From positions 1-60,234 of the forward strand of contig CADCVE010000106.1 of the NCBI GenBank assembly GCA_902806065.1: a stretch of DNA of 60,234 nucleotides, given 5' to 3'. The stretch comes from an uncultured Rubrobacteraceae bacterium (GTDB taxonomy: Bacteria; Actinomycetota; Rubrobacteria; Rubrobacterales; Rubrobacteraceae). Shown here piece after piece: positions 12,300-37,105 of the stretch (the first letter of the stretch is position 1; every line of letters begins with the position of its first letter). The notes beneath the pieces are model-generated. The model was not told the DNA's origin. It searched no databases and saw only the letters and a list, made by a program, of their open reading frames with translations. The translations under genes were made by a program, and so were the position numbers.

Positions 12300-13406
12300 C
12301 TAGATCGTCTCTCTGCGGCGTTGTAGCTGACCGTAGGGGTGGCCGGTGTGGAGACGCTCCATGGAGCTTATCGCGGCGATGCGTTCGAGGGCCAGGGTGT
12401 CGGCGGCTACGTTGGTCGGGACGCCATCACGCTTGGAGATGGCGATGATACTGCGAACGGAGTCGGCGATGCGCATCACCCGCTTGGTGGCTCGCCGCTC
12501 GTTGTAGCCCTCCAGCTCGTCGGCAACGTTTATGAGGCCACCGGCGTTTATGACGTAGTCCGGAGCGTAGAGGATGCCGCGCTCTGCCAGAGCTTCACCG
12601 TGCCGACTCTCGTCGAGCACGTTGTTGGCGCTCCCGGCGACTATCCGGCAGCGGAAGTTAGGCAAGGTTTCGTCGTTTACCACGGCGCCCAGGGCACACG
12701 GGGCGAGTACGTCACAGGGTATTGAGAGGATCTCGTCCGGCTCCACAGCCTTGGCGCCGAACTCGCGAGCTGCGCGCCGTACGGCGGAGGCTTGGAGGTC
12801 TGTAACTATCAGGCGTGCTCCCTCTTCATGGAGCAGGCGGCAAAGATGGTAGCCCACGTGCCCGAGACCCTGTACCGCGACGGCACTACCTTCGAGAGAG
12901 GTCGTGTCGTAGACCTCCTCCACGCAGGCCCGCATCCCCTGAAGAACGCCCAGAGCAGTAAAGGGGGAAGGGTCGCCCGAACCGCCGTACGATACATCCG
13001 CGCCGACGACGTAAGAGGTTTCGACCTGGATGTGGTGTATGTCCCCGGTCGAGATGCCGACGTCCTCGGCCACGATGTAACGACCACCTAGAGTCTCGAT
13101 GTAGCGGCCCAGGGAGCGGAAGAGGGCTTCGGATTTGTGCTTGCGCGGGTCGCCGATGACGACGGATTTACCGCCGCCGAGGTTGAGGCCGCTCGCGGCG
13201 GCCTTGTAGGTCATCCCGCGGGCGAGGCGCAGGGCATCGGTCACGGCCTCGTCCTCGGTATTGTAGGGCCACATCCGGCAGCCGCCGAGGGCGGGTCCCA
13301 GCGTAGTGTCGTGGATAGCGATTATGGCTCGGAGACCTGTGGCCTGATCGTGGCAGAACACGACCTGCTCATAGCGATACTCCGCCAGCTTCTCGAAGAT
13401 ATGCAT
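12300..13406 (-). CDS. ldh: Leucine/Glu-Leu-Phe-Val dehydrogenase
   Basis: NAD-dependent amino-acid dehydrogenase, 368 residues, that interconverts a branched-chain amino acid and its 2-oxo acid plus ammonia. Lys68 (GMTYKAA) and Lys80 (GGGKSVV) fall where leucine dehydrogenase has its substrate and catalytic lysines, and the Rossmann GLGHVGYHL motif is near residue 180. The length matches leucine rather than glutamate dehydrogenase (about 450). ATG at 13406 follows AAGGAGGAAG. The gene diverges from the acyl-CoA carboxylase genes across 94 bases, so the two may share a control region. The product 2-oxo acids are the expected substrates of the complex at 8-11.4 kb. Valine or phenylalanine preference cannot be excluded. 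Confidence 0.88.
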   Translation of the reverse strand: MHIFEKLAEYRYEQVVFCHDQATGLRAIIAIHDTTLGPALGGCRMWPYNTEDEAVTDALRLARGMTYKAAASGLNLGGGKSVVIGDPRKHKSEALFRSLGRYIETLGGRYIVAEDVGISTGDIHHIQVETSYVVGADVSYGGSGDPSPFTALGVLQGMRACVEEVYDTTSLEGSAVAVQGLGHVGYHLCRLLHEEGARLIVTDLQASAVRRAAREFGAKAVEPDEILSIPCDVLAPCALGAVVNDETLPNFRCRIVAGSANNVLDESRHGEALAERGILYAPDYVINAGGLINVADELEGYNERRATKRVMRIADSVRSIIAISKRDGVPTNVAADTLALERIAAISSMERLHTGHPYGQLQRRRETI

Positions 13407-13500: not shown

Positions 13501-15084
13501 ATGCCTTTTATGCAGGGTGAGAGATTAGGAGAGAACACTACCGCCGGGAAGATCGAGGGTCTCGAACGCCTCCGCGAGGCGGCGGCACACCCGGCGCCGG
13601 AGCAGGCCGTCACCCGGCAGCGCGAACGCGGCAAGCTCACGGCACGCGAGCGCATAGAATTGCTCCTCGACCCCGGCACCTTCGTCGAACTGGACCGCTA
13701 CCGGGTCCACCGCTCGTACAACTTCGGTTTGGAAGAGAACAGGCCGCTTGGCGATGGGGTGATAACCGGCTACGGCGAGGTCGCTGGGAGGAAGGTCTGC
13801 GTCTTTTCGCAGGACTTCACCGTTTTCGGTGGTTCTCTGGGTGAGGTGTACGCGCAGAAGATCTGCAAGGTCATGGACCTTGCGATCAACACGGGTTGTC
13901 CTGTCGTCGGGATCAACGACTCCGGCGGGGCGCGTATCCAGGAGGGCGTCGTCTCTCTCGCCGGCTACGCGGATATCTTTCACAGGAACGTGTTGGCCTC
14001 CGGGGTCGTGCCCCAGGTCAGCGTAGTCATGGGTCCCTGCGCGGGAGGAGCCGTCTACTCACCGGCGATCACGGACTTTATCTTCATGGTCGAGGAGACG
14101 AGCCACATGTTCATCACCGGCCCGGACGTCATAAAGAGCGTCACGGGCGAGGAGGTGACGCAAGAAGAGCTGGGCGGCGCGGGCACCCACAACACGAAGA
14201 GTGGTGTCGCCCACTTCTCCTCCCCGGATGAGGAGACCTGCCTCGAAGACGTCCGCTACCTGCTCACCTTCCTACCCGAAAACAACCTGGAGAGTGCCCC
14301 GTACTACAGGCCCTCCGATGATCCGGAGCGGATGGACGAGGCGCTAGCCGCACTGATCCCCGACTCCGCCCAGCGGCCCTATGATATGCGGGAGGCTATC
14401 GAGGGTGTGATGGACGATGGGGAGTTCTTCGAGGTGCAGGAGGGGTGGGCGCAGAACCTCGTCGTAGGCTTCGCGAGGCTCGACGGGCATGCGGTCGGTG
14501 TCGTCGGGAACCAGCCAGCGGTGTTGGCGGGGACGCTGGATATAGACGCGAGCGTGAAGGGCGCGCGGTTCGTGCGTTTTTGCGACGCATTCAACATCCC
14601 GCTGGTAACCTTCGTGGACGTGCCGGGGTTCATGCCCGGGACGGACCAGGAGTTCGGCGGCATCATCCGTCACGGGGCGAAGTTGCTCTACGCTTTCTCC
14701 GAGGCGACGGTGCCGAAGATGACGGTTATCACCAGGAAAGCCTACGGCGGAGCCTACGACGTCATGTGCTCCAAGCACATTGGGGCGGACGTGAACGTGT
14801 CGTGGCCGACGGGGGAGATCGCGGTGATGGGCGCGAGGGCCGCTGTGAATATCATCTTCCGCCGTCAGATCGCCGAGGCCGAGGACCCGGACGAGAAGCG
14901 CGAGGAGTTGATCTCCGGTTACGAGGAGCGGTTCAACAACCCGATGGTCGCCGCCGAGATGGGTTACATAGACGATGTAATAGACCCGCGCGAGACGCGA
15001 CCGTACCTCATAAAGGCCCTCTCCATGATCCGCACCAAGCGCCCCGAGCGCCCGCCGCGCAAGCACGGAAATATCCCTCTTTGA
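13501..15084 (+). CDS. pccB: Acyl-/propionyl-CoA carboxylase, carboxyltransferase (beta) subunit
   Basis: Biotin-dependent carboxyltransferase, 527 residues, transferring carboxyl from carboxybiotin to an acyl-CoA; with propionyl-CoA the product is methylmalonyl-CoA. Two crotonase-fold halves are evident: the acyl-CoA oxyanion stretch [11 protein letters not shown] with [13 protein letters not shown] in the N half, and [10 protein letters not shown] with GGAYDVM in the C half. In [17 protein letters not shown] the Asp sits at the position that in Streptomyces PccB (Asp422) favours propionyl over larger chains; this is an alignment by eye. The stop overlaps the TTG start of the epsilon subunit. 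It converges on the pathway served by meaB. Confidence 0.92.
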
Positions 15085-15293
15085 GGATAAACCCCGAGCC
15101 AAGCCCCGAAGAGGTCGCGGCGATCATGGCGGCGCTCGTCGTCACGAGGGAGGTCTATGAAGATCCGGAGGTGGAGGCCAATCTGCGCCGAAGCCGATGG
15201 AGGCTCGCCGGGTTGCTTGGACACGCGCCGCCGCGGGAGATGAAGCTAGACGGCGCTTTGTGGACTTACTCTAGTTGGGAAGGCATGGTCTAG
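15081..15293 (+). CDS. Acyl-CoA carboxylase epsilon subunit
   Basis: A 70-residue protein in the slot between the beta and alpha carboxylase genes. It begins [18 protein letters not shown] and ends in a Trp-containing basic segment ([18 protein letters not shown]) and SSWEGMV. Actinobacterial acyl-CoA carboxylases carry such small epsilon subunits, which start with a PxPEExAA motif and bind and stimulate the beta subunit. The TTG at 15081 overlaps the beta stop (TTGA), typical of translational coupling, and the stop at 15291-15293 touches the GTG of the alpha gene. In-frame sequence continues upstream within the beta gene, so automated calling may place the start too early or miss the gene. 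Confidence 0.8.
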
Positions 15294-17051
15294 GTGTTCG
15301 AGAAAGTCTTGATTGCGAACCGCGGTGAGATAGCCGTGCGTATAATCCGCGCTTTGCGGGAGTTGGAAGTAACGAGTGTGGCGGTGTACTCGGATGCGGA
15401 TCGGAAATCGCTGCACGCGCGTCTTGCTGATGAGGCGTATCATGTGGGACCTGCGATGGCGACAGAGAGCTACCTTGACGTCGAGAAGCTGATCGAGGTG
15501 GCGGAGCGTTCGGGGGCGGAGGCGGTCCATCCGGGGTACGGCTTTCTGGCGGAGAGCGCGCCTTTTGCGCGAGCGGTAGAGGAGGCCGGACTGGTGTGGA
15601 TCGGGCCTCGACCGGCGGCAATGGAGGCGATGGGGAGCAAGGTCGAGAGCCGGCGTATCATGGCGAAGGCAGGTGTCCCCATGACACCGGGCACCGAAGA
15701 TGCCGTCGAGTCCGCGGGCGCCGTCTATGAGTTCGCGGAGGAGCACGACTACCCGGTGGCGGTGAAGGCGTCGTCCGGGGGCGGCGGCAAGGGCTTCGCG
15801 GTCGCCTACGATGAGGCGGGGGCGGAGGCGGCCTTCGAGCGGGCGAGACGCGAGGGGGAGGCGTATTTCGGGGATGGGTCGGTGTATCTGGAGAAGTATT
15901 TGCCAGGGCCGCGGCACGTGGAGATACAGGTGGTACGCGACAAGCATGGGAACGCGGTGCACTTGGGGGAGCGGGACTGTTCTATTCAGCGCAGGCATCA
16001 GAAGCTGCTGGAGGAGTGTCCGAGCCCGGCGATAGACCCCGCGATGCGTGAGGAGATGGGCGGGGCGGCGGTCGAGGCGGCGGAGGCCGTTGGCTACGAC
16101 AACGTGGGCACGGTCGAGTTTCTGGTGCAGGATGATGGATTCTATTTTCTGGAGATGAACACGCGGGTGCAGGTCGAGCATCCAGTGACCGAGGAGGTTA
16201 CAGGGGTAGACATTGTGCAGACCGGTATCCGTATCGCCGCCGGGGAGGAGTTGGCGTTCTCCCAAGAGGACGTTGGTTGGCGGGGACATGCGATCGAGGT
16301 GCGCGTAAACGCCGAGGACGCGACGAACGACTTTATACCGAGCCCCGGCAACGTTACCCTCTACGAGGAGCCGGGCGGGCCAGGCGTCAGGGTAGATTCG
16401 GCGCTCCGCGAACCGGGCGTGGTCCCGGAATATTACGATCCACTCTTCGCGAAGCTCATCGTGCGGGGAGCGAACCGGGAGGATGCCCTCAGACGGCTGC
16501 GGCGCGCGCTTGCGGAGTTCAGGATCGAGGGTATAGCCACGACCCTGCCGTTCTTCGAGGCTATTCTGGAGGACGAGGTCTTTGTAAAAGGAAGCTACAC
16601 GACCGGGTTCATAGCCGAGCGGCTCGCGGGGCTGAAGATCAAAGGCCAGCCAGGCGCGCACGGCGCTGGCGCGAAGCTGGAGAAGGAGGCTCGGGAGGTC
16701 GAGGTCGAGGTCAACGGCAAGCTCTTTCGGGTGAAGGTGTATGGGGACGAGGCCGGGACGGGGGGTGGCACCGGGGGCATGAAGGCTCCTCCCGCGAGGC
16801 GGAGTCGGGAGCGAGGCGGTGGAATGGCTCAACTCACCGAGGGTACGGTGGTTGCGCCGATGCAGGGTACGATCCTGAAGGTGTTCGTCGAGGAGGGGCA
16901 GGTGGTCGCGGTGGACGATCCCGTATGCCTCCTGGAGGCGATGAAGATGGAGAGCGAGGTCCGGGCCAGGAGGGACGGCGTGATCTCGGAGGTGCTGGTC
17001 GAGGCCGGTAAGACGGTGCGTTCCGGCGACCCCCTCGTCGTTTTGGAGTAG
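15294..17051 (+). CDS. pccA: Acyl-/propionyl-CoA carboxylase alpha subunit (biotin carboxylase plus BCCP)
   Basis: ATP-dependent biotin carboxylase fused to its biotin carrier, 585 residues. The N-terminal carboxylase domain has IANRGEIAVRIIRALRE, HPGYGFLAE, the ATP-grasp loop SSGGGGKGF (about residue 160), RDCSIQRRHQK, and EMNTRVQVEHPVTEE (active-site Glu and Arg). A linker with Gly-rich sequence leads to the carrier domain, biotinylated at Lys551 in EAMKM. GTG start directly abuts the epsilon stop, so beta, epsilon and alpha are one operon. The alpha subunit could also serve other beta subunits (acetyl-CoA). Confidence 0.93.
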   Translation: MFEKVLIANRGEIAVRIIRALRELEVTSVAVYSDADRKSLHARLADEAYHVGPAMATESYLDVEKLIEVAERSGAEAVHPGYGFLAESAPFARAVEEAGLVWIGPRPAAMEAMGSKVESRRIMAKAGVPMTPGTEDAVESAGAVYEFAEEHDYPVAVKASSGGGGKGFAVAYDEAGAEAAFERARREGEAYFGDGSVYLEKYLPGPRHVEIQVVRDKHGNAVHLGERDCSIQRRHQKLLEECPSPAIDPAMREEMGGAAVEAAEAVGYDNVGTVEFLVQDDGFYFLEMNTRVQVEHPVTEEVTGVDIVQTGIRIAAGEELAFSQEDVGWRGHAIEVRVNAEDATNDFIPSPGNVTLYEEPGGPGVRVDSALREPGVVPEYYDPLFAKLIVRGANREDALRRLRRALAEFRIEGIATTLPFFEAILEDEVFVKGSYTTGFIAERLAGLKIKGQPGAHGAGAKLEKEAREVEVEVNGKLFRVKVYGDEAGTGGGTGGMKAPPARRSRERGGGMAQLTEGTVVAPMQGTILKVFVEEGQVVAVDDPVCLLEAMKMESEVRARRDGVISEVLVEAGKTVRSGDPLVVLE

Positions 17052-17165: not shown

Positions 17166-18281
17166 TTGCAATATCTCAAACCGGTTCCGGGAATGGTAGA
17201 GCACGCGGCGGATTTCGAGTGGCGCGGCGAGGGCGAAGGCGCCGAGGTCGTGCTCTATGCCCCCGAAGCGGCTTCCGCTGAACGAGGCTTTGAAAAACTC
17301 ATGCCGGCCGCCAGTCTGCCCGGTGTAGTGAGCCCCGTGCATGCCGCTGCCTCGGGTTCCAAGGTGGGTTGGGTCGCGGCTTCGGAGACGCACGCCGCCC
17401 CAGACCTGTTCTCCACACCCGCGCGGGGCTTGCTGCTCGTCGCCAATGCGTCCGTTGAGGAGTTCGGCTTGTCGCCCGGTGAGGTGGGGGACCTTGTATT
17501 GCGCAACCTCTCGGAGATTTCGCCGCCGCGGTTTGGGGAGGCCGAGGTGCGGCGGGCCGTGGAGAATGGGGTGGTGTGGGCGGCAGAGGAGGGTTTGATC
17601 CCCGAGGAAGACCTCGCCTTGTTTGGGGCCCCTGGCTCCGCCTCCGGCTCTGCCACCGGCGAGTCCGACGCCCTCCCCCGGCGTGCCCTCTCCGCCGGAG
17701 CGCAAGACTTAGGGCGCCGCCAGTGGATAGAGGTCTACACAGTCGCGGAGGTCCTGGATTCGGATCAGGCGGAGGCCCTGGCGCTGAGTGCCGGCGCACT
17801 CATACTCCACACGGAGACCGTCTCCGAAGACCTCGGAAGACTCGCCCTGATCGCTCACCGGGAGCGAATCCTCAAGCAGGTCTGGAGCCGAGACTTCGGC
17901 GCAACCGCCGATCTGCCGGCCGCCCCTCTGGAGACCGAAGAGGCCTCGGACCTCCTTGCCGCCGTTCGGGCGATCGCCAATTACGCTGATGCCCGGGCCG
18001 CGCTACTCCTGAACGAACTGCGCCGGGTGTTCATCGAGGAGGGTGGCGTGCAACTCCATGCAGCGTGGCGGCTTGGAGGAATCGCGCAACGGGACGATCT
18101 TCTCCTTCACCGTCACAACCTGGCGGCGATAGAGGGAGGTGGCATCCTGTCAACGCGGGACTTCGTGGCGGCAGGTACCGGTGCGATGCGTGCGAGCGCG
18201 CCAACCTTTGGTCCAGGCTCCGAGGAGGAGCCCTGGGCGTGGGAGGAGGCGGGGCTTCTGGAGAGGGTAGCGCGTCTTTGA
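17166..18281 (+). CDS. RtcB-like protein with the active site erased
   Basis: A 371-residue protein that aligns by eye with RtcB RNA ligases along its whole length. Matching blocks in order: AASLPGVV and KVGWVAA (RtcB LPGIVG and PIGGVAA), VENGVVWAAEEGLIPEEDL (region before the catalytic core), RALSAGAQDLG with VYTVAEVLDSDQAEALAL, AAVRAIANYADARAALLLNEL, and HRHNLAAIEGG. The metal ligands and guanylylated site are gone: no DxNCGVR, GSGNHF reads DLGRRQW, HSGSRGLGH reads HTETVSEDLG, and the VHRKGAT histidine region is altered. Ligase activity is therefore not expected. The frame is intact and codon use looks normal, so it is probably made. TTG at 17166 or ATG at 17193 could start it. Known RtcB proteins repair or splice RNA; what this one does is unknown. 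Confidence 0.65.
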   Translation: MQYLKPVPGMVEHAADFEWRGEGEGAEVVLYAPEAASAERGFEKLMPAASLPGVVSPVHAAASGSKVGWVAASETHAAPDLFSTPARGLLLVANASVEEFGLSPGEVGDLVLRNLSEISPPRFGEAEVRRAVENGVVWAAEEGLIPEEDLALFGAPGSASGSATGESDALPRRALSAGAQDLGRRQWIEVYTVAEVLDSDQAEALALSAGALILHTETVSEDLGRLALIAHRERILKQVWSRDFGATADLPAAPLETEEASDLLAAVRAIANYADARAALLLNELRRVFIEEGGVQLHAAWRLGGIAQRDDLLLHRHNLAAIEGGGILSTRDFVAAGTGAMRASAPTFGPGSEEEPWAWEEAGLLERVARL

Positions 18282-18410: not shown

Positions 18411-18689
18411 TTGACCGGCGAGATACTAGACAAGTTTTCCCAGCTGATAACGACGGCCCTCGGGCTCGTGGCGGCCCTGGCGTGGAACACGGCTATCCAG
18501 AACCTGTTCACCCAGCTCTTTGGTGAGGCGGGAGGTGCTCTGATCGGCCAGTTTATCTACGCAGCCGTTATTACCCTCATCGTAGTCTTCGCCACCATCG
18601 CGGTGAGCCGGGCCGCCGCACGAGCCAAGAAGGCCGAGGAGGAGCGGGACAAGGGTATCCTGGGCCTGGGAGGCCGCTCGAAAGATTGA
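18411..18689 (+). CDS. DUF5654 family small membrane protein
   Basis: A 92-residue protein with two hydrophobic helices (about residues 12-32 and 45-67) and a basic, charged tail (RAAARAKKAEEERDKG). The phrase ALGLVAALAWNTAIQNLF followed by FGEAGG is characteristic of DUF5654, whose function is unknown. The start is TTG at 18411 after AGGAGAAG. It stands alone, 129 bases past the RtcB-like gene, and converges with the bifunctional-nuclease gene. Confidence 0.75.
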   Translation: MTGEILDKFSQLITTALGLVAALAWNTAIQNLFTQLFGEAGGALIGQFIYAAVITLIVVFATIAVSRAAARAKKAEEERDKGILGLGGRSKD

Positions 18690-18742: not shown

Positions 18743-19249
18743 CTACTTGAAGTCGTCCGGGGAGACCCGGTTCATCCAGTCCTTGAACTTATCCACGACC
18801 TCTTCTTCGGGGGCATCCTCCATCGCCTCTGCCTCTTCGAAGACGACGCCAGCCTCTTCTATCACCGTGTCGGAGGCGAAGATGGTAGCGCCGGTGCGTA
18901 CGGCGATGGCGATGGCGTCCGAGGGCCGGGAGTCTACCTCCACGGTGCGGCCTTCTATCTCCACGTGCAGGGTCGCGAAGAAGGTCGAGTCGCGCAGCTC
19001 GGTTACGGTAATGCGTTCCAGGGAGCCGCCCATCTCGGTCATAATGTTGGCGGCGAGGTCGTGGGTAAGGGGCCGGCTAAACTCCTGGTTCTGTAGCTTC
19101 ATCAAGATAGAACGAGCTTCAGGTTGGCCGATCCAGATCGGCAGATAACGGTTCTCGTCCTCGACCTTCAGAATAACTATAGGACTGGAGCTGAAGAGGT
19201 CCAGGTTGATCCCGTAGACGGACATCCGGGTGAAGCCGTTGGCGCTCAC
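18743..19249 (-). CDS. Bifunctional nuclease family protein (BFN/DUF151)
   Basis: A 168-residue protein with the full BFN core: VYGINLDLFSSSPIVILK, LPIWIGQPEA near residue 38, RPLTHDL near 60, and the signature SRPSDAIAIAVRTGA near 107. In plants BFN proteins have RNase and DNase activity; the bacterial role is not firmly known. An acidic tail (EEAEAMEDAPEEE) follows the core. The start is GTG at 19249; an internal ATG at residue 9 (19225) gives the more usual MSVYGI opening and is a fair alternative. It is a single-gene unit. Confidence 0.88.
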   Translation of the reverse strand: MSANGFTRMSVYGINLDLFSSSPIVILKVEDENRYLPIWIGQPEARSILMKLQNQEFSRPLTHDLAANIMTEMGGSLERITVTELRDSTFFATLHVEIEGRTVEVDSRPSDAIAIAVRTGATIFASDTVIEEAGVVFEEAEAMEDAPEEEVVDKFKDWMNRVSPDDFK

Positions 19250-19997: not shown

Positions 19998-20576
19998 ATG
20001 TCCAGAACTAAACCCTGGATGGTGTCCGACGAGTTTTGGGAGAATGTCGAACCGTTGGTGCCAGAGGCGCCTTCGCACGAGAGGGGCGGCAGACCCCGCA
20101 TGCCCAACCGCCAGGCGTTCGAGGCGATGGTCTACGTTTTGCGTACCGGCATTCAGTGGAACGCCCTACCCCGAGAGCTTGGGGCGAGCTCGACGGTACA
20201 TGCGCGCTTTCAGGAGTGGGAACGGGAGGGGTTCTTCGAGGAACTCTGGCGGGCGGGTCTCGTGGAGTACGAGGAGATGGAGGGTATCGAGTGGGAGTGG
20301 CAATCGGTGGATGGGGTGATGACGAAGGCCCCTTTAGGACGCGGCGCGACCGGTCCCAACCCCACTGATCGGGCCAAGAAAGGGGTAAAGCGCAGCATGC
20401 TCACCGACGGGACGGGCATCCCATTGGCGGTCGTGGTCGATGGGGCCAACCGCAACGACGCGAAGCTCTTGGCGGCCACCCTCGATGGGATCGTGGTGGC
20501 TCGCCCAACCTCCGAAGAAGAAGAAGAAGAAGGCTCCGAGCATCTGTGTCTGGACGCGGGCTACGATTCTACGTAG
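19998..20576 (+). pseudogene. Truncated IS5-family transposase
   Basis: N-terminal 192 residues of an IS5-type DDE transposase. The DUF4096 region is intact (WMVSDEFWENVEPLVP, GGRPRMPNRQAFEAMVYVLR, GIQWNALPREL) and the first catalytic Asp is in the QSVDGVMTKAP block. It then reads GTGIPLAVVVDGANRNDAK and LCLDAGYDST and stops at TAG. The rest, normally about 80 residues with the catalytic Glu and the WVVERTHSWL-type signature, is absent. The sequence beyond the stop does not resume a transposase frame. It is an insertion-sequence remnant next to tRNA-Ile, and cannot move by itself. Confidence 0.8.
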
Positions 20577-20866
20577 TTCCCTTGAGCTTGGAAAACGTAT
20601 AAAGTTGAATATATGTGATGTTTTTGGACGGATAGAGAAGAGACTAGTAGGTAGAGCAGGAGAAACAGAAGTCGGGCCGGGCTCTTTAGAAGGGGGGAGA
20701 TTACCAGCCGGGTCAGGGGATTGCTCTACTCTATCTGAAGGTGCTTCTATACGGAACGTTGGTCTAGGGTACCTATCCAACCGGTATCTGGCTAGTTCTA
20801 CGGTCAAGGGCCTTGATCCAGGGGCAGCACGAGTACAAGTAGAGAATTATGCGGAGGGGGAACAGA
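20577..20866 (+). other. Gap between transposase remnant and secreted-protein genes
   Basis: No gene recognised. It should include the promoter of the secreted-protein cluster, but I could not assign convincing -35 and -10 boxes. Confidence 0.3.
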
Positions 20867-21205
20867 ATGAGGAAGATGATGTTGCTGGCGGCGCTCTTGG
20901 CGATGCTGGTGGTTGCGGCTATTCCGGCCATAGCGCAAGTCGAGCAGGGCTTCGATCAGGAGACCGAGAGCGGCGACGTGAACCAGACGTTCGAGATCTC
21001 CGGTGGCGGCGACAACGGTAGCTCGTGCGTGAACGTCAACGGCAATGTGAACACTGGTAACCTGCAGAACCAGAGCGGCTCCATCCAGTACGCTTCGGAC
21101 ACCGAGGACTTCGAGCAAGAGGACCTCAGCAACGCGCTCAACGTGGGCGGTACCTCGACGGTGACGTGCGACCAGCAGGTCAACCAGGCTGCATCTGCCG
21201 GCTAA
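20867..21205 (+). CDS. Small secreted protein, NTGNLQ family, copy 1
   Basis: A 112-residue exported protein of a family I do not recognise. A classical signal peptide (MRKMMLLAALLAMLVVAAIPA) ends in AIAQ. The mature part is polar and rich in Asn, Gln, Gly and acid residues, with blocks SGDVNQTFE, NVNTGNLQNQSGS, DTEDFEQEDLSNAL and the end VTCDQQVNQAASAG. It has two cysteines that could form a disulfide. The ATG at 20867 follows GGAGGGGG. The next gene is a clear paralogue with the same block order. There is no membrane anchor, so the product is probably released or held in the envelope. Its function is unknown. Confidence 0.8.
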   Translation: MRKMMLLAALLAMLVVAAIPAIAQVEQGFDQETESGDVNQTFEISGGGDNGSSCVNVNGNVNTGNLQNQSGSIQYASDTEDFEQEDLSNALNVGGTSTVTCDQQVNQAASAG

Positions 21206-21282: not shown

Positions 21283-21666
21283 TTGAACAGCATCGTGCTA
21301 AAGCGGTTGCTGCTCTTGGCGGCAATGGCGGCGATGGTGTTGGCGCTAGCCATACCGGCCTTAGCCAGTACGGCCAACACCGGTAACCTACAAGACGTTC
21401 TAGGCCAAGGCTCAGAGCAAGAAGCCGACAGCGGGGAGATCAATCAGTCTTTCGAGGCCACCGGATCGGGAGACAACTCCAACCAGTGTTTCGGGTTCAA
21501 CGGTACTGCCAACACCGGCAACCTGCAGAGTTCGACTAGCTTCAGCCAGTTCGACTCTGATATAGAGCAGTTCGAGCAAGACGATGTTGGGTCCGATCTT
21601 ACGATAAGTGGCGACTCTCCGGTGACGTGCGACCAGCAGGTCAACCAGGCCGCGTCGGCCGGCTAA
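21283..21666 (+). CDS. Small secreted protein, NTGNLQ family, copy 2
   Basis: A 127-residue paralogue of the gene at 20867. Signal peptide (LLLLAAMAAMVLALAIPALA), then two NTGNLQ blocks (residues 32-37 and near 76), SGEINQSFEATGSGDN, SDIEQFEQDDVGSDL, and the identical C-terminal VTCDQQVNQAASAG. Copy 1 has only one NTGNLQ block, so this copy has an extra repeat near its N terminus. Two cysteines are conserved. The start is TTG at 21283 after AAGGGGGGAG. The pair arose by tandem duplication. It resembles repeat-bearing surface or matrix proteins in composition, but I know no named family. Confidence 0.8.
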   Translation: MNSIVLKRLLLLAAMAAMVLALAIPALASTANTGNLQDVLGQGSEQEADSGEINQSFEATGSGDNSNQCFGFNGTANTGNLQSSTSFSQFDSDIEQFEQDDVGSDLTISGDSPVTCDQQVNQAASAG

Positions 21667-23990: not shown

Positions 23991-26507
23991 ATGTCAGCAG
24001 AAGGGGTCAAGTTAGACAAGAAAGGCACCGCCCGCAAGGGGTCTTCTGGTTCGGGCGGGATCCCTTTGATGATCCTTTTCTCGGTGACGATATTCGTAAG
24101 CGCTGCACTCTTGTTCCTGGTCGAGCCGATGTTCGCCAAGTTCATCCTGCCGCTGTTCGGGAGCACGCCCGCGGTGTGGACTGGCTCCATGATGTTCTTC
24201 CAGGCGGCGCTGCTTGTCGGCTACCTTTACGTACACCTTACGACTACCTGGCTCGGTGCCCGCCGGCAGGCCGTTCTACATCTCGTTGTCGTGCTGTTGC
24301 CGCTGCTGGTCCTGCCTTTAGCCAGGCCTGGTGGTGAGTGGGCGCCTTCTGCGGAGGGAACCCCGATCTTCTTGCTTCTGGGGCTGCTCCTAGTTACGGT
24401 GGGGCTCCCGTTCTTCGCGATCTCGACAACCAACCCCCTGGTCCAGAGATGGCTCGCCGACACCGATCATCCCGCCGCCAAAGACCCCTACTTCCTTTAC
24501 CGGGCGAGTAACCTTGGCAGCGTAATAGGGTTGCTAGGCTACCCGCTGGTGGTAGAGCGTGGGCTGACGCTCCAGAACCAGGGCCTGATATGGTCGTTGA
24601 GTTACGGGCTGCTGATAGTCCTGGTCTTCGCCTCGGCGGTGATGCTTTGGCGTTCTACTCCCGCCACTCCAGAGACGCGGGAAGAGGAGGCGGAACCGCT
24701 GGCCGGAGACCCCATAAGCGGGGGTGGCTCTTCTCAGACCGCCGAGCCTTCGCTCGCCACCCCCGGGCTCACAGGGGACGTTACGATCTGGCGGCGACTG
24801 CGGTGGATCGGGCTTACGTTCGTCCCTTCGAGCATGATGCTCGGTGTTACGGCCTTTATAACGACAGATATTACGCCGATTCCGCTGCTGTGGGTGGCCC
24901 CGCTCTCTCTGTACCTGTTCTCGTTCGTGATCGTCTTCTCGCCGAGCCAGAGAATACCCGACCTGATCCACAAGATAATGGTCGGGGCGCTGCCGCTAAT
25001 GATGGCGGTGCTGGTGATAACTATTCTCATGGATATGCGCGACCCATTCTACTTATTCATATTGCTGCATCTTCTGGGCTTCTTCGTGGTGACGATGGTG
25101 CTGCACGGCGAGGTGGCGCGGGACCGTCCGCCGGCGCGGTACCTCACGGAGTTCTACCTGTGGATAGCCGTTGGAGGCGTCCTGGGCGGTGTATTCAACG
25201 CCGTCATCGCACCGGTCGCGTTCGACACGGTGATCGAGTACCAGCTTGCGATAGTGCTCGCATGCATGTTCGTGCCGGGGCTCGTGCTCTCGCGTCTGCT
25301 CGGGGGCACCCGCGCGGAGCGGGACGCTGCCCGCGGTAGCGAGGAAGGGCAGGGTTCCGAAAGGTCCGCCGGGGGCGAGGAAAATGAGGTGAGCCGCAAC
25401 GGTAGCGGAAGTGGCGCGCACCGGTCGTCCCCGCGCTGGCTGGGTCTCGCACTGGACGTGGCTCTGCCCGTGGTTGTTGGTGTGGCGCTCTTGGCGGTCG
25501 GCTGGGCCGTGGATCAGGGGACCTTCGATTCCTTGAACGGGGCATTCAACTCTTTGGTGGGTTCGGCTGTCCTGGATAGAAGCGTCATCTGGTCAACGGC
25601 TATCGGTCTGGGTATCGGGGTGAGCCTGTGGTTCGCTTACTCGGCCAGCCGTCCTATCCGCTTCGGGCTGTGCATCGCGGCGATCGTGCTGGCCGTTAGC
25701 TTCGCGGAGGCCGAGGAGGCGACGCTCTTCGAGGACCGCAGTTTCTTCGGGGTGTACAGGGTCACGGGCGATCAGGATCTCCACACTCTCGTCTTCGGCA
25801 GCACCAACCACGGCGCCCAGATCTTCGGGACCGAGACTCCCGTACCGACCACTTACTATCACAGCACAGGACCGATAGGACAGGTCTTCGATGCCTTGCC
25901 CGAGGACGTGACCTCGAAGCCGGCCGTGATCGGGCTGGGTACCGGCACCATGTCCTGCTACAACAACCCCGGTCAGCAAATGACCTTCTACGAGATAGAC
26001 CCCCTGATCGAACGCGTCGCCCGTAACGAGAACTTGTTTACTTACCTGCGCGACTGTCCGGGCGAGAACGAGGTGGTCATCGGCGACGCTCGCCTCTCCA
26101 TGGCCGAAGCCCCGGATGGGAGCTACGGGGTGATCGCGGCGGACGCCTTCAGCTCCGACGCTATACCCGTTCACCTGATGACCCGCGAGGCCATAGATAT
26201 GTACTTCGATAAGCTGCAGGACAACGGGGTCCTGGCTATGCACATCTCCAACAGGCACCTGGAACTTGAACCCGTACTCGGTAACGTCGCTCAAGACGCC
26301 GGACTCACCTGCCGGGCCCAGTACGATCAGGAGAACGAAGGCATACCGGGCAAATTCGTCTCCCACTGGGTAGTAATGACCCGCGAGGAGGGGAACCTCG
26401 GTAGCATGGCTGGCGATGAGCGGTGGCGGCCCTGCGGCCAGGAACCAGGCTCCGCAGTCTGGACCGACGACTACTCGAACCTGCTCAGCACCTTCCAGTG
26501 GAACTAA
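23991..26507 (+). CDS. Fused MFS-like membrane / spermidine-synthase-like protein, copy A
   Basis: An 838-residue protein with a large membrane part and a C-terminal aminopropyltransferase-like domain. The first membrane block (residues 23-220, about six helices, SAALLFLVEPMFAKFILPLFG) is followed by a polar loop, a second block (about 270-430), another polar Ser/Gly/Glu-rich insert, and two or three more helices. The Rossmann domain shows VIGLGTGTMSCY, FYEIDPLIERVA, IGDARLSMAEAP and AADAFSSDAIPVHLMTREA, matching spermidine-synthase folds. Fused MFS/spermidine-synthase proteins are known as a family, but substrate and reaction are not. A paralogue lies at 34598-37105 on the other strand. A strong terminator follows at 26540. 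Confidence 0.85.
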   Translation: MSAEGVKLDKKGTARKGSSGSGGIPLMILFSVTIFVSAALLFLVEPMFAKFILPLFGSTPAVWTGSMMFFQAALLVGYLYVHLTTTWLGARRQAVLHLVVVLLPLLVLPLARPGGEWAPSAEGTPIFLLLGLLLVTVGLPFFAISTTNPLVQRWLADTDHPAAKDPYFLYRASNLGSVIGLLGYPLVVERGLTLQNQGLIWSLSYGLLIVLVFASAVMLWRSTPATPETREEEAEPLAGDPISGGGSSQTAEPSLATPGLTGDVTIWRRLRWIGLTFVPSSMMLGVTAFITTDITPIPLLWVAPLSLYLFSFVIVFSPSQRIPDLIHKIMVGALPLMMAVLVITILMDMRDPFYLFILLHLLGFFVVTMVLHGEVARDRPPARYLTEFYLWIAVGGVLGGVFNAVIAPVAFDTVIEYQLAIVLACMFVPGLVLSRLLGGTRAERDAARGSEEGQGSERSAGGEENEVSRNGSGSGAHRSSPRWLGLALDVALPVVVGVALLAVGWAVDQGTFDSLNGAFNSLVGSAVLDRSVIWSTAIGLGIGVSLWFAYSASRPIRFGLCIAAIVLAVSFAEAEEATLFEDRSFFGVYRVTGDQDLHTLVFGSTNHGAQIFGTETPVPTTYYHSTGPIGQVFDALPEDVTSKPAVIGLGTGTMSCYNNPGQQMTFYEIDPLIERVARNENLFTYLRDCPGENEVVIGDARLSMAEAPDGSYGVIAADAFSSDAIPVHLMTREAIDMYFDKLQDNGVLAMHISNRHLELEPVLGNVAQDAGLTCRAQYDQENEGIPGKFVSHWVVMTREEGNLGSMAGDERWRPCGQEPGSAVWTDDYSNLLSTFQWN

Positions 26508-34597: not shown

Positions 34598-37105
34598 TCA
34601 GTTGAACTGTACGGTGCTGAGCAGGTTGGAGTAGTCGTCGGTCCAGACCCTGTCCGTTTCGGGGTTGGTCGCGCAGGGCGCCCAGCGTGGGTCGGTTGGC
34701 ACGCTACCGAGGTCGGCGTCTTCGCGAGCCAGAACGGTGAAGTGGCTCGCGAGCTTGTATGGGATATTTTCGGGCGCCGTGTCGTATTGCGCGTAGCAGA
34801 CGAGTCCGCGGTCGCGCGCCAGGTCGCCGACCACGGGCTCTAGCTCCAGGTGCCTGTTGGAGATATGGTGGACCAGGACGCCGTTCTCGTTGAGCTTGTC
34901 CATGTACATGTCGGTGGCCTCACGCGTGAGCATGTGGATGGGTATGGCGTCCGAGGAGAAGGCCTCGCCGATGATCATGCCGTACTTCCCACTGTCGGCT
35001 TCGGCCAGACGAAGCCGGGCGTCGCCGAGGATCACGTCGTACTCGCCCGCGCAGTCTCGAAGGTAGGTAAAGAGGTCAGGATTGCGGGCCATGGACTCGA
35101 CGGCCGGGTCGATCTCGTAGTAGTCCCACTGCTGGCCGGGCTCGGCGTAGCATGACATCACGCCCGCGCCCAGGCCGAGCACGGAGATCGGCGCCTCGTC
35201 CGTGGCCTCGGCAGGCAAGAGGTCGAAGAGCTGCCCGAACGGTCCCGTCGGGTCGTGGTAAGCGATAGGCGTGGGAGGCTGGGGTCCCACGACCTGCGCT
35301 CCGTGGTTCGTGCTGCCGACCACAAGCGCGCGGTACTCGCCGCCGGAGCCATCCGTCGCCGGCTGACTCGTGACCTGGTAGAGCCCGTAGAAGCTCCGGT
35401 CTTCATAGAGTTGCGTCTCGCCGTTCGCGTAGGTAACGGCAACTATGACCGCCGCAATGCCGAGCCCGAAGCGCAAGGGCCGGCTGGAGACATACGCGAA
35501 CCACAGGCACGCCAGACCGGCGCCCAGGCCGATACATATATACCAAACGCTGGCCCTGTCCAAGTTGAATGTCTCGTTGAAGGAGTCGAAGTACCCGTTG
35601 TCGATAAGCCAACCAATGCCTACCAACGCCAGCCCCAGCGCCACTGGTAGCGCCAGGTCCAGGGCCAGTTTCGGGCTGGAGAACCGGTCCGCGCCACTGC
35701 TGCGCTCGGAGGCAGGCTCGGAGCCTTGCTCTCCTTCAGGGCTTCCTTCGGGACGCTGCTCACCAGCGCTTCTTCTGGGGCCGAGTAGGTGTGCGATGAC
35801 CAGCCCGGGCAGGAACATACAAGCGAGCACTATGGCCAGCGGGTACTCGATCACTGTGTCGAACGCGACCGGTGCTATCAGGGCGTTGAACACGCCGCCC
35901 AGGACGCCTCCAACGGCGATCCACAGGTAGAACTCCGTGAGGTACCGCGCCGGGGGGCGGTCTCTAAACACCTCACCGTGCAGCACCATCGCCACCACGA
36001 AGAAGCCCACGATGTGTACCGTTAACCGCGCCCAGTAGGGGATGCCCAGGCCAGCGAGCGTATCTATTACCAGCAGCGCCATCATCACTGGCAGCGCCAG
36101 CACCATGATCTTGTGGATTACGTCGGGCACTCTCTGGCCCGGCGAGGAGACGATCACGAAAGAGAACAGGTACAGTGAGAGCGGTATTACCCACAGCAGC
36201 GGTACCGGCGTTATGTCGGTCGTCGCGAAGGCCGTTACCCCGAGCATGAGACTTGAGGGAACGAACGTGAGTCCTATCCAACGCAGCCGCCGCCAGATCG
36301 TGACGTTCTCAGTGAGACCCGGGGAGAGTGAAGGTTCGGCGTTCTGCGGGGAACCGCCGCCGCTCAATGGGTCTCCCGCTAGCGGCTCCATCTCCTCTTC
36401 CTCCTGCGCGGCGGAGCCGCTAGCGGGCGCCGGATTGGAACGCCACAGCATCACCGCCGATGCGATGACCAGCAGTACGAGCAGCCCATAGCTCGCTGAC
36501 CATATCAGCCCCTGGTTCTGGAGCGTCAATACCCGCTCCACAAACAACGGGTAGCCCAAGAGCCCGATGATGCTGCCCAGGTTGCTCGCCCGGTACAGAA
36601 AATAGGGGTCCTTGGCGGATGGATGATCCGTGTCCGCCACCCACCTCTGGACCAGCGGGTTCGTCGTCGAGAGCGCGAAGAATGGGAGCCCCACCGAGAC
36701 TAGCAGCAGACCCAGGAGCAGGAAAATCGGGTTTTCCTGCGTCCCGGGGGCCCACTCTTCGCCTGGCACGGCCAGCGGCAAGAACAGGATCGGTAACAGG
36801 ACGACGACGAGGTGCAGTACCGCCTGGCGCCTGGACCCTAACCAGGTGCTCGTAAGATGCACGTAGAGGTAACCGGTGAGGAGCGCCGCCTGGAAGAACA
36901 TCATGGATCCGGTCCATACCGCGGGCGTGCCGCCGAAAGAGGGCAAGACGAACTTGGCGAACATCGTCTCGACCATGAACAAGAGGGCGGCGCTAACAAA
37001 GATCGTGGCGGAGAACAGGAGCATCATCAAAGCCCCACCCGAACTTGAAGACCTCTTCTTGCCAACGGTATCCTTCTTACCTGCCTTGACCCCTTCTGCT
37101 GACAT
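34598..37105 (-). CDS. Fused MFS-like membrane / spermidine-synthase-like protein, copy B
   Basis: An 835-residue paralogue of the gene at 23991, collinear over its length and clearly similar in every membrane block (FVSAALLFMVETMFAKFVLPS, YLYVHLTSTWLGSRRQAVL, FLYRASNLGSIIGLLGYPL). The C-terminal Rossmann domain has LGLGAGVMSCY, YYEIDPAVESMA, ILGDARLRLAEAD and GEAFSSDAIPIHMLTREA. In the last motif Gly-Glu replaces the Ala-Asp of copy A, so the Asp of the AADAF pattern is Glu here. The two polar inserts differ most. ATG at 37105 has a weak distant GGAAGG site. Substrate unknown. The two copies face opposite ways about 8 kb apart. Confidence 0.85.
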   Translation of the reverse strand: MSAEGVKAGKKDTVGKKRSSSSGGALMMLLFSATIFVSAALLFMVETMFAKFVLPSFGGTPAVWTGSMMFFQAALLTGYLYVHLTSTWLGSRRQAVLHLVVVLLPILFLPLAVPGEEWAPGTQENPIFLLLGLLLVSVGLPFFALSTTNPLVQRWVADTDHPSAKDPYFLYRASNLGSIIGLLGYPLFVERVLTLQNQGLIWSASYGLLVLLVIASAVMLWRSNPAPASGSAAQEEEEMEPLAGDPLSGGGSPQNAEPSLSPGLTENVTIWRRLRWIGLTFVPSSLMLGVTAFATTDITPVPLLWVIPLSLYLFSFVIVSSPGQRVPDVIHKIMVLALPVMMALLVIDTLAGLGIPYWARLTVHIVGFFVVAMVLHGEVFRDRPPARYLTEFYLWIAVGGVLGGVFNALIAPVAFDTVIEYPLAIVLACMFLPGLVIAHLLGPRRSAGEQRPEGSPEGEQGSEPASERSSGADRFSSPKLALDLALPVALGLALVGIGWLIDNGYFDSFNETFNLDRASVWYICIGLGAGLACLWFAYVSSRPLRFGLGIAAVIVAVTYANGETQLYEDRSFYGLYQVTSQPATDGSGGEYRALVVGSTNHGAQVVGPQPPTPIAYHDPTGPFGQLFDLLPAEATDEAPISVLGLGAGVMSCYAEPGQQWDYYEIDPAVESMARNPDLFTYLRDCAGEYDVILGDARLRLAEADSGKYGMIIGEAFSSDAIPIHMLTREATDMYMDKLNENGVLVHHISNRHLELEPVVGDLARDRGLVCYAQYDTAPENIPYKLASHFTVLAREDADLGSVPTDPRWAPCATNPETDRVWTDDYSNLLSTVQFN

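Follow-up and report, generated by a model that had tools for sequence, protein, structure and literature searches.

A probable RtcB-fold pseudoenzyme family of Rubrobacterales whose gene usually closes an acyl-CoA carboxylase operon

Introduction

RtcB is a 3′-phosphate/5′-hydroxyl RNA ligase, and bacterial paralogues with specialised roles are cited in the literature (PMC10630183; PMC9223846). Its metal site holds one Mn on Cys98, His234 and His329 and another on Asp95, Cys98 and His203 (PMC10630183); Asn202 contacts the triphosphate and His404 is the nucleophile (PMC3973293). Here we describe an RtcB-family protein, pseudo-RtcB, encoded in a stretch of 60,234 nucleotides (the window) from an uncultured Rubrobacteraceae bacterium. 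Pseudo-RtcB resembles type-1 RtcB (TTHA1785/2epg; P. horikoshii PH1602/1uc2; PF01139) over the full fold, with its blocks in the same order, and shares scaffold residues with it, including His329-Arg330. Unlike type-1 RtcB, it lacks Asp95, Cys98, Asn202, His203, His234 and His404, is about 110 residues shorter with deletions around the active site, and is acidic, lysine-poor and without a link to Archease.

As an extra bacterial RtcB-family protein, pseudo-RtcB can be compared with RtcB1-3 of Myxococcus xanthus and RtcB2-PrfH of E. coli. These paralogues, where studied, reportedly retain ligase or capping activity, whereas the pseudo-RtcB family has lost its catalytic residues. Another comparison is with the epsilon subunit of actinobacterial acyl-CoA carboxylases (AccE/PccE), which is likewise non-catalytic and belongs to the same operon; however, epsilon is a small unrelated protein, and this locus already has a gene for a probable epsilon between those for beta and alpha. 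A literature search, thin on subscription journals, found no paper on an RtcB pseudoenzyme or on RtcB together with Rubrobacter. The pseudo-RtcB family is most aptly described as a new, catalytically inactive form of the RtcB fold.

Results

Pseudo-RtcB is a full-length RtcB homologue

The reading frame is open across 17166-18281 on the forward strand, beginning at TTG 17166, as the initial annotation had reported. Because orthologues begin near residue 8-10 of this ORF, ATG 17193 is more likely to be the start codon, which would give a protein of 362 amino acids.

The proposal that the product is homologous to RtcB over its full length was borne out by sequence, profile and structure comparisons. 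Pfam PF01139 (RtcB) matched it with 37 bits (E=3.2e-9; gathering cut-off 27), single-sequence phmmer matched Thermus RtcB TTHA1785 (2epg; E=9e-12), and a profile of the family detected the P. horikoshii and Thermus enzymes at E of about 5e-18. Profile-profile comparison and structure prediction, the checks suggested at the outset, both returned RtcB. Using hhalign, the family aligned with seven canonical Rubrobacterales RtcBs over 306 columns at 98.3% probability, and an AlphaFold2 model based on 27 family sequences (pLDDT 90.8, pTM 0.91) had 2epg as its best Foldseek match (E=7e-22, TMq 0.81). All 16 significant PDB chains were RtcB (TMq 0.76-0.81), and no fold other than RtcB was significant when the model was searched against PDB and viral folds. 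The homology is beyond doubt, and the predicted fold is that of a complete RtcB. The expectation that this relationship would be hard to see by pairwise search applies to part of the family: most orthologues fall below the PF01139 cut-off, but the window member passes it and is also found by phmmer.

The catalytic residues are lost throughout the family

To compare catalytic positions, 28 family members (window included) were aligned with eight canonical RtcBs of the same order, using P. horikoshii numbering. All 28 pseudo-RtcBs have lost Asp95, Asn97, Cys98, the His of AHNN, His404 and Arg408 by deletion. None of the 28 retains Asn202 or His203, which are either missing or substituted, and His234 is substituted in every one. 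The HR of VHRKG is kept (His329 in 27 of 28, Arg330 in 28 of 28), and among the five residues of the two-metal site (Asp95, Cys98, His203, His234, His329) only His329 is retained. The motifs were lost mostly by deletion (DxNCG, part of GSGNHF, AHNN and HGAGR), and the segments that contact GTP in RtcB are deleted as well. The initial annotation had described all catalytic residues as replaced; the loss is real, but it consists mostly of deletions rather than substitutions and spares His329-Arg330. Judged from the alignment, pseudo-RtcB is very probably not an RtcB ligase and would be unable to guanylylate or ligate RNA.

Conservation within the family is partly ancestral and partly new. Of the 297 columns that are invariant in the canonical set, 73 are preserved in the family consensus and 85 are deleted from it, and 23 of the 48 near-invariant pseudo-RtcB positions are common to canonical RtcB. 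Since pseudo-RtcB has the His329-Arg330 pair and about half of its near-invariant positions in common with canonical RtcB, an ancestral ligand site of some kind could have survived. A further 24 near-invariant positions carry residues unlike those of canonical RtcB. Conserved family-specific features include W10, R104, E138, H222-R223-x-R225, W292-GG and a SAPPFG...WPWEEAGLL tail; several of the residues unlike canonical RtcB are polar (R104, E124, E138, R163, H222, R223 and D253).

The family was found only in Rubrobacterales and is under purifying selection

Counting matches better than E=1e-20, pseudo-RtcB is present in 34 of the 39 Rubrobacterales genomes examined. Among the five genomes without a match, three (G004, G033, G034) are incomplete, and the absence from G027 was set aside, with the BFN neighbour lying at a contig end where pseudo-RtcB would sit. 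The remaining genome, G016 (99% complete), truly lacks the gene, its carboxylase alpha and BFN genes being about 0.4 kb apart; a small ORF occupies that gap (locus L100). A profile search of 396 sampled Actinomycetota genomes detected no family member beyond Rubrobacterales: full-length members scored >430 bits, and matches outside the order scored <=71 bits and lay in reading frames at least as long as canonical RtcB. No relative was found among phages and plasmids at E<=1e-5.

The dN/dS of pseudo-RtcB is 0.16-0.36 (Nei-Gojobori, 13 pairs), and the protein identity of the adjacent carboxylase exceeded that of pseudo-RtcB in each of the seven pairs compared. Pseudo-RtcB is thus under purifying selection, which is looser than that on the adjacent carboxylase. 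The idea of a pseudoenzyme kept under selection, for which orthologue dN/dS and conserved residues had been proposed as the check, is upheld: because the losses are family-wide (shared by the 28 aligned members), the gene is present in most genomes of the order and dN/dS is low, with the predicted fold intact, pseudo-RtcB is a lineage-restricted, selected pseudoenzyme family and not a pseudogene.

Pseudo-RtcB usually closes an acyl-CoA carboxylase operon

The gene and its neighbours in the window are as follows.

12300..13406, reverse strand: Glu/Leu/Phe/Val dehydrogenase, conserved left flank (synteny)
13501..15084, forward strand: acyl-CoA carboxylase carboxyltransferase, beta (Pfam Carboxyl_trans, 676 bits)
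15087..15293, forward strand: probable acyl-CoA carboxylase epsilon, small ORF between beta and alpha (Pfam ACC_epsilon E=0.005, below cut-off)
15294..17051, forward strand: acyl-CoA carboxylase alpha, biotin carboxylase + BCCP (Pfam Biotin_carb_N/C, CPSase_L_D2, Biotin_lipoyl; synteny)
17193..18281, forward strand: RtcB-fold pseudoenzyme CDS, 362 aa (frame, Pfam, phmmer, hhalign, AlphaFold2/Foldseek, orthologues)
18411..18689, forward strand: small membrane-like protein of the DUF5654 type, usually found downstream (Pfam DUF5654; synteny)
18743..19249, reverse strand: protein with a bifunctional nuclease (BFN) domain, neighbouring downstream in convergent orientation (Pfam BFN_dom; synteny)

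Carboxylase alpha lies directly upstream of pseudo-RtcB in nearly all orthologous loci, and most of the examined loci that are long enough show the arrangement dehydrogenase, beta, alpha, pseudo-RtcB, BFN. The alpha stop codon precedes the pseudo-RtcB start by 1-46 nt in 23 of the 25 orthologous loci with both genes (<=15 nt in 19), and GGAGTAG, the last codons of alpha, could serve as a ribosome-binding site in many of them. Longer spacings occur in two g3 genomes (102 and 243 nt) and in the window (141 nt), where the 141-bp gap has no repeat copy elsewhere in the source genome. Two kinds of exception were found. Genomes G026 and G028 keep pseudo-RtcB with no orthologous carboxylase alpha (best about 55% identity), and G016 has the carboxylase without pseudo-RtcB, with BFN adjoining the carboxylase. 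In most genomes pseudo-RtcB stands last in an acyl-CoA carboxylase operon, and the link is not obligatory. Genes for a 2-oxoacid dehydrogenase and MeaB also lie near the operon in the window; together with the carboxylase genes and the neighbouring Leu/Phe-type dehydrogenase, they form a neighbourhood that would fit branched-chain amino acid breakdown through propionyl-CoA.

Elsewhere in the window, two adjacent paralogous genes for small secreted-looking proteins (20849-21205 and 21283-21666, forward strand) both carry the motifs GDN and NTGNLQ and have a C-terminus in common, VTCDQQVNQAASAG. An IS5-like transposase ORF at 19998-20576 (forward strand) is apparently truncated or frameshifted. 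Similar long membrane-type proteins of 838 and 835 aa are encoded about 8 kb apart in opposite orientation (23991-26507, forward; 34598-37105, reverse).

Pseudo-RtcB occurs independently of canonical RtcB and Archease

The source genome (G000) contains no other RtcB-family gene and no Archease. Among the 22 best Rubrobacterales genomes, canonical RtcB is present in 12 and absent in full form from 10 (G000, G002, G005, G010-G013, G019, G023, G029), all 10 of which carry pseudo-RtcB; G002, counted here as lacking full canonical RtcB, has one weak putative fragment. Some genomes (G001, G014, G015, G026, G028, G038) carry both proteins, and G016 has canonical RtcB and Archease without pseudo-RtcB. 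Archease was detected in 10 Rubrobacterales genomes, each with a type-1 RtcB or a fragment of one. The occurrence of pseudo-RtcB is independent of both canonical RtcB and Archease.

Among the canonical genes of the order, type-1 RtcB has Archease directly upstream (L036-L043). A second RtcB type (G006, G022, G024, G025, G031 and others) has canonical motifs in the five examples examined (L045-L048, L050), and genomes with only this type have no Archease.

Discussion

Loss of catalytic residues alone could also mark a decaying pseudogene without function, and the copy in the complete genome of Rubrobacter marinus (NZ_CP045121; L085 / L004) is spread over several frames. However, the neighbouring R. 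marinus carboxyltransferase is likewise split across frames, so assembly indels are probable there, and the frame is intact in the 28 aligned copies; given the dN/dS and the spread among genomes, we rejected decay as scarcely credible. Hardly less improbable is a role in regulating a true RtcB RNA ligase or in serving it as a decoy subunit. The initial annotation had raised the regulatory role, which would suit the identical fold and the genomes with both proteins. As a general function it is contradicted by the ten genomes, the source genome included, without full canonical RtcB, by the reverse situation in G016, and by Archease, which tracks canonical RtcB only. The same annotation suggested that the protein could bind RNA. 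RtcB ancestry and the retained His329-Arg330 would accord with a nucleic-acid binder that kept substrate binding and lost catalysis, but with a pI of 4.3-5.1 and 0-4 lysines the family differs from the canonical RtcBs of these bacteria, which have a pI of 6.0-8.8 and 11-21 lysines. Such an acidic composition, almost devoid of lysine, makes RNA binding unlikely, and with the GTP-contacting segments deleted as well we regard an RNA-binding role as very improbable.

A re-purposed enzyme deserves more weight and is still unlikely. Here, the family-specific polar residues and the His-Arg pair would form a new active site with a different chemistry, perhaps for a CoA-linked or acyl substrate. The near-invariant positions unlike canonical RtcB, several of them polar, and the retained His-Arg pair (H306-R307) speak for it. 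No catalytic constellation is recognisable, however, and many of the newly conserved residues are W, G, P or A, as would suit packing or an interface. Pseudo-RtcB is instead probably a non-catalytic RtcB-fold accessory protein that acts by binding, a statement that leaves aside the identity of its partner. One variant of this explanation, with another partner, is that the protein works apart from the carboxylase, perhaps with BFN or DUF5654, and merely shares the carboxylase promoter. This is favoured by G026 and G028, which keep the gene without carboxylase genes at the site and whose pseudo-RtcBs are 92% identical to each other with a dN/dS of 0.26, and by BFN, which adjoins pseudo-RtcB convergently in nearly all loci reaching that far. 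The short spacing after the biotin carboxylase stop codon in most loci argues against it, as does G016, where BFN stays beside the carboxylase without pseudo-RtcB, and we consider it somewhat unlikely.

For the accessory protein, the likeliest candidate partner is the product of the adjacent upstream gene, the biotin-carboxylase/BCCP subunit, or else the holoenzyme. The carboxylase leads because of the operon position, and we propose it tentatively because of the counterexamples in G026/G028 and G016. The two-metal site and the guanylylated histidine are lost throughout the family in Rubrobacterales. According to this model, pseudo-RtcB, acidic and poor in lysine, would use its family-specific conserved residues as an interface for another protein or a small ligand, and would act as an assembly or regulatory accessory of acyl-CoA carboxylase. 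A possible, if rather doubtful, outcome is that within one bacterial order an RNA-ligase fold has come to serve a biotin-dependent acyl-CoA carboxylase as a regulator or as a subunit without catalytic function.

RtcB is a well-studied enzyme family, and a pseudo-RtcB family throughout nearly a whole order is a natural experiment on an RNA-ligase scaffold without its metals. Pfam labels pseudo-RtcB an RNA ligase despite the missing catalytic residues. Because pseudo-RtcB is the sole RtcB-family member in at least nine near-complete Rubrobacterales genomes, automatic annotation could wrongly credit such genomes with RNA repair.
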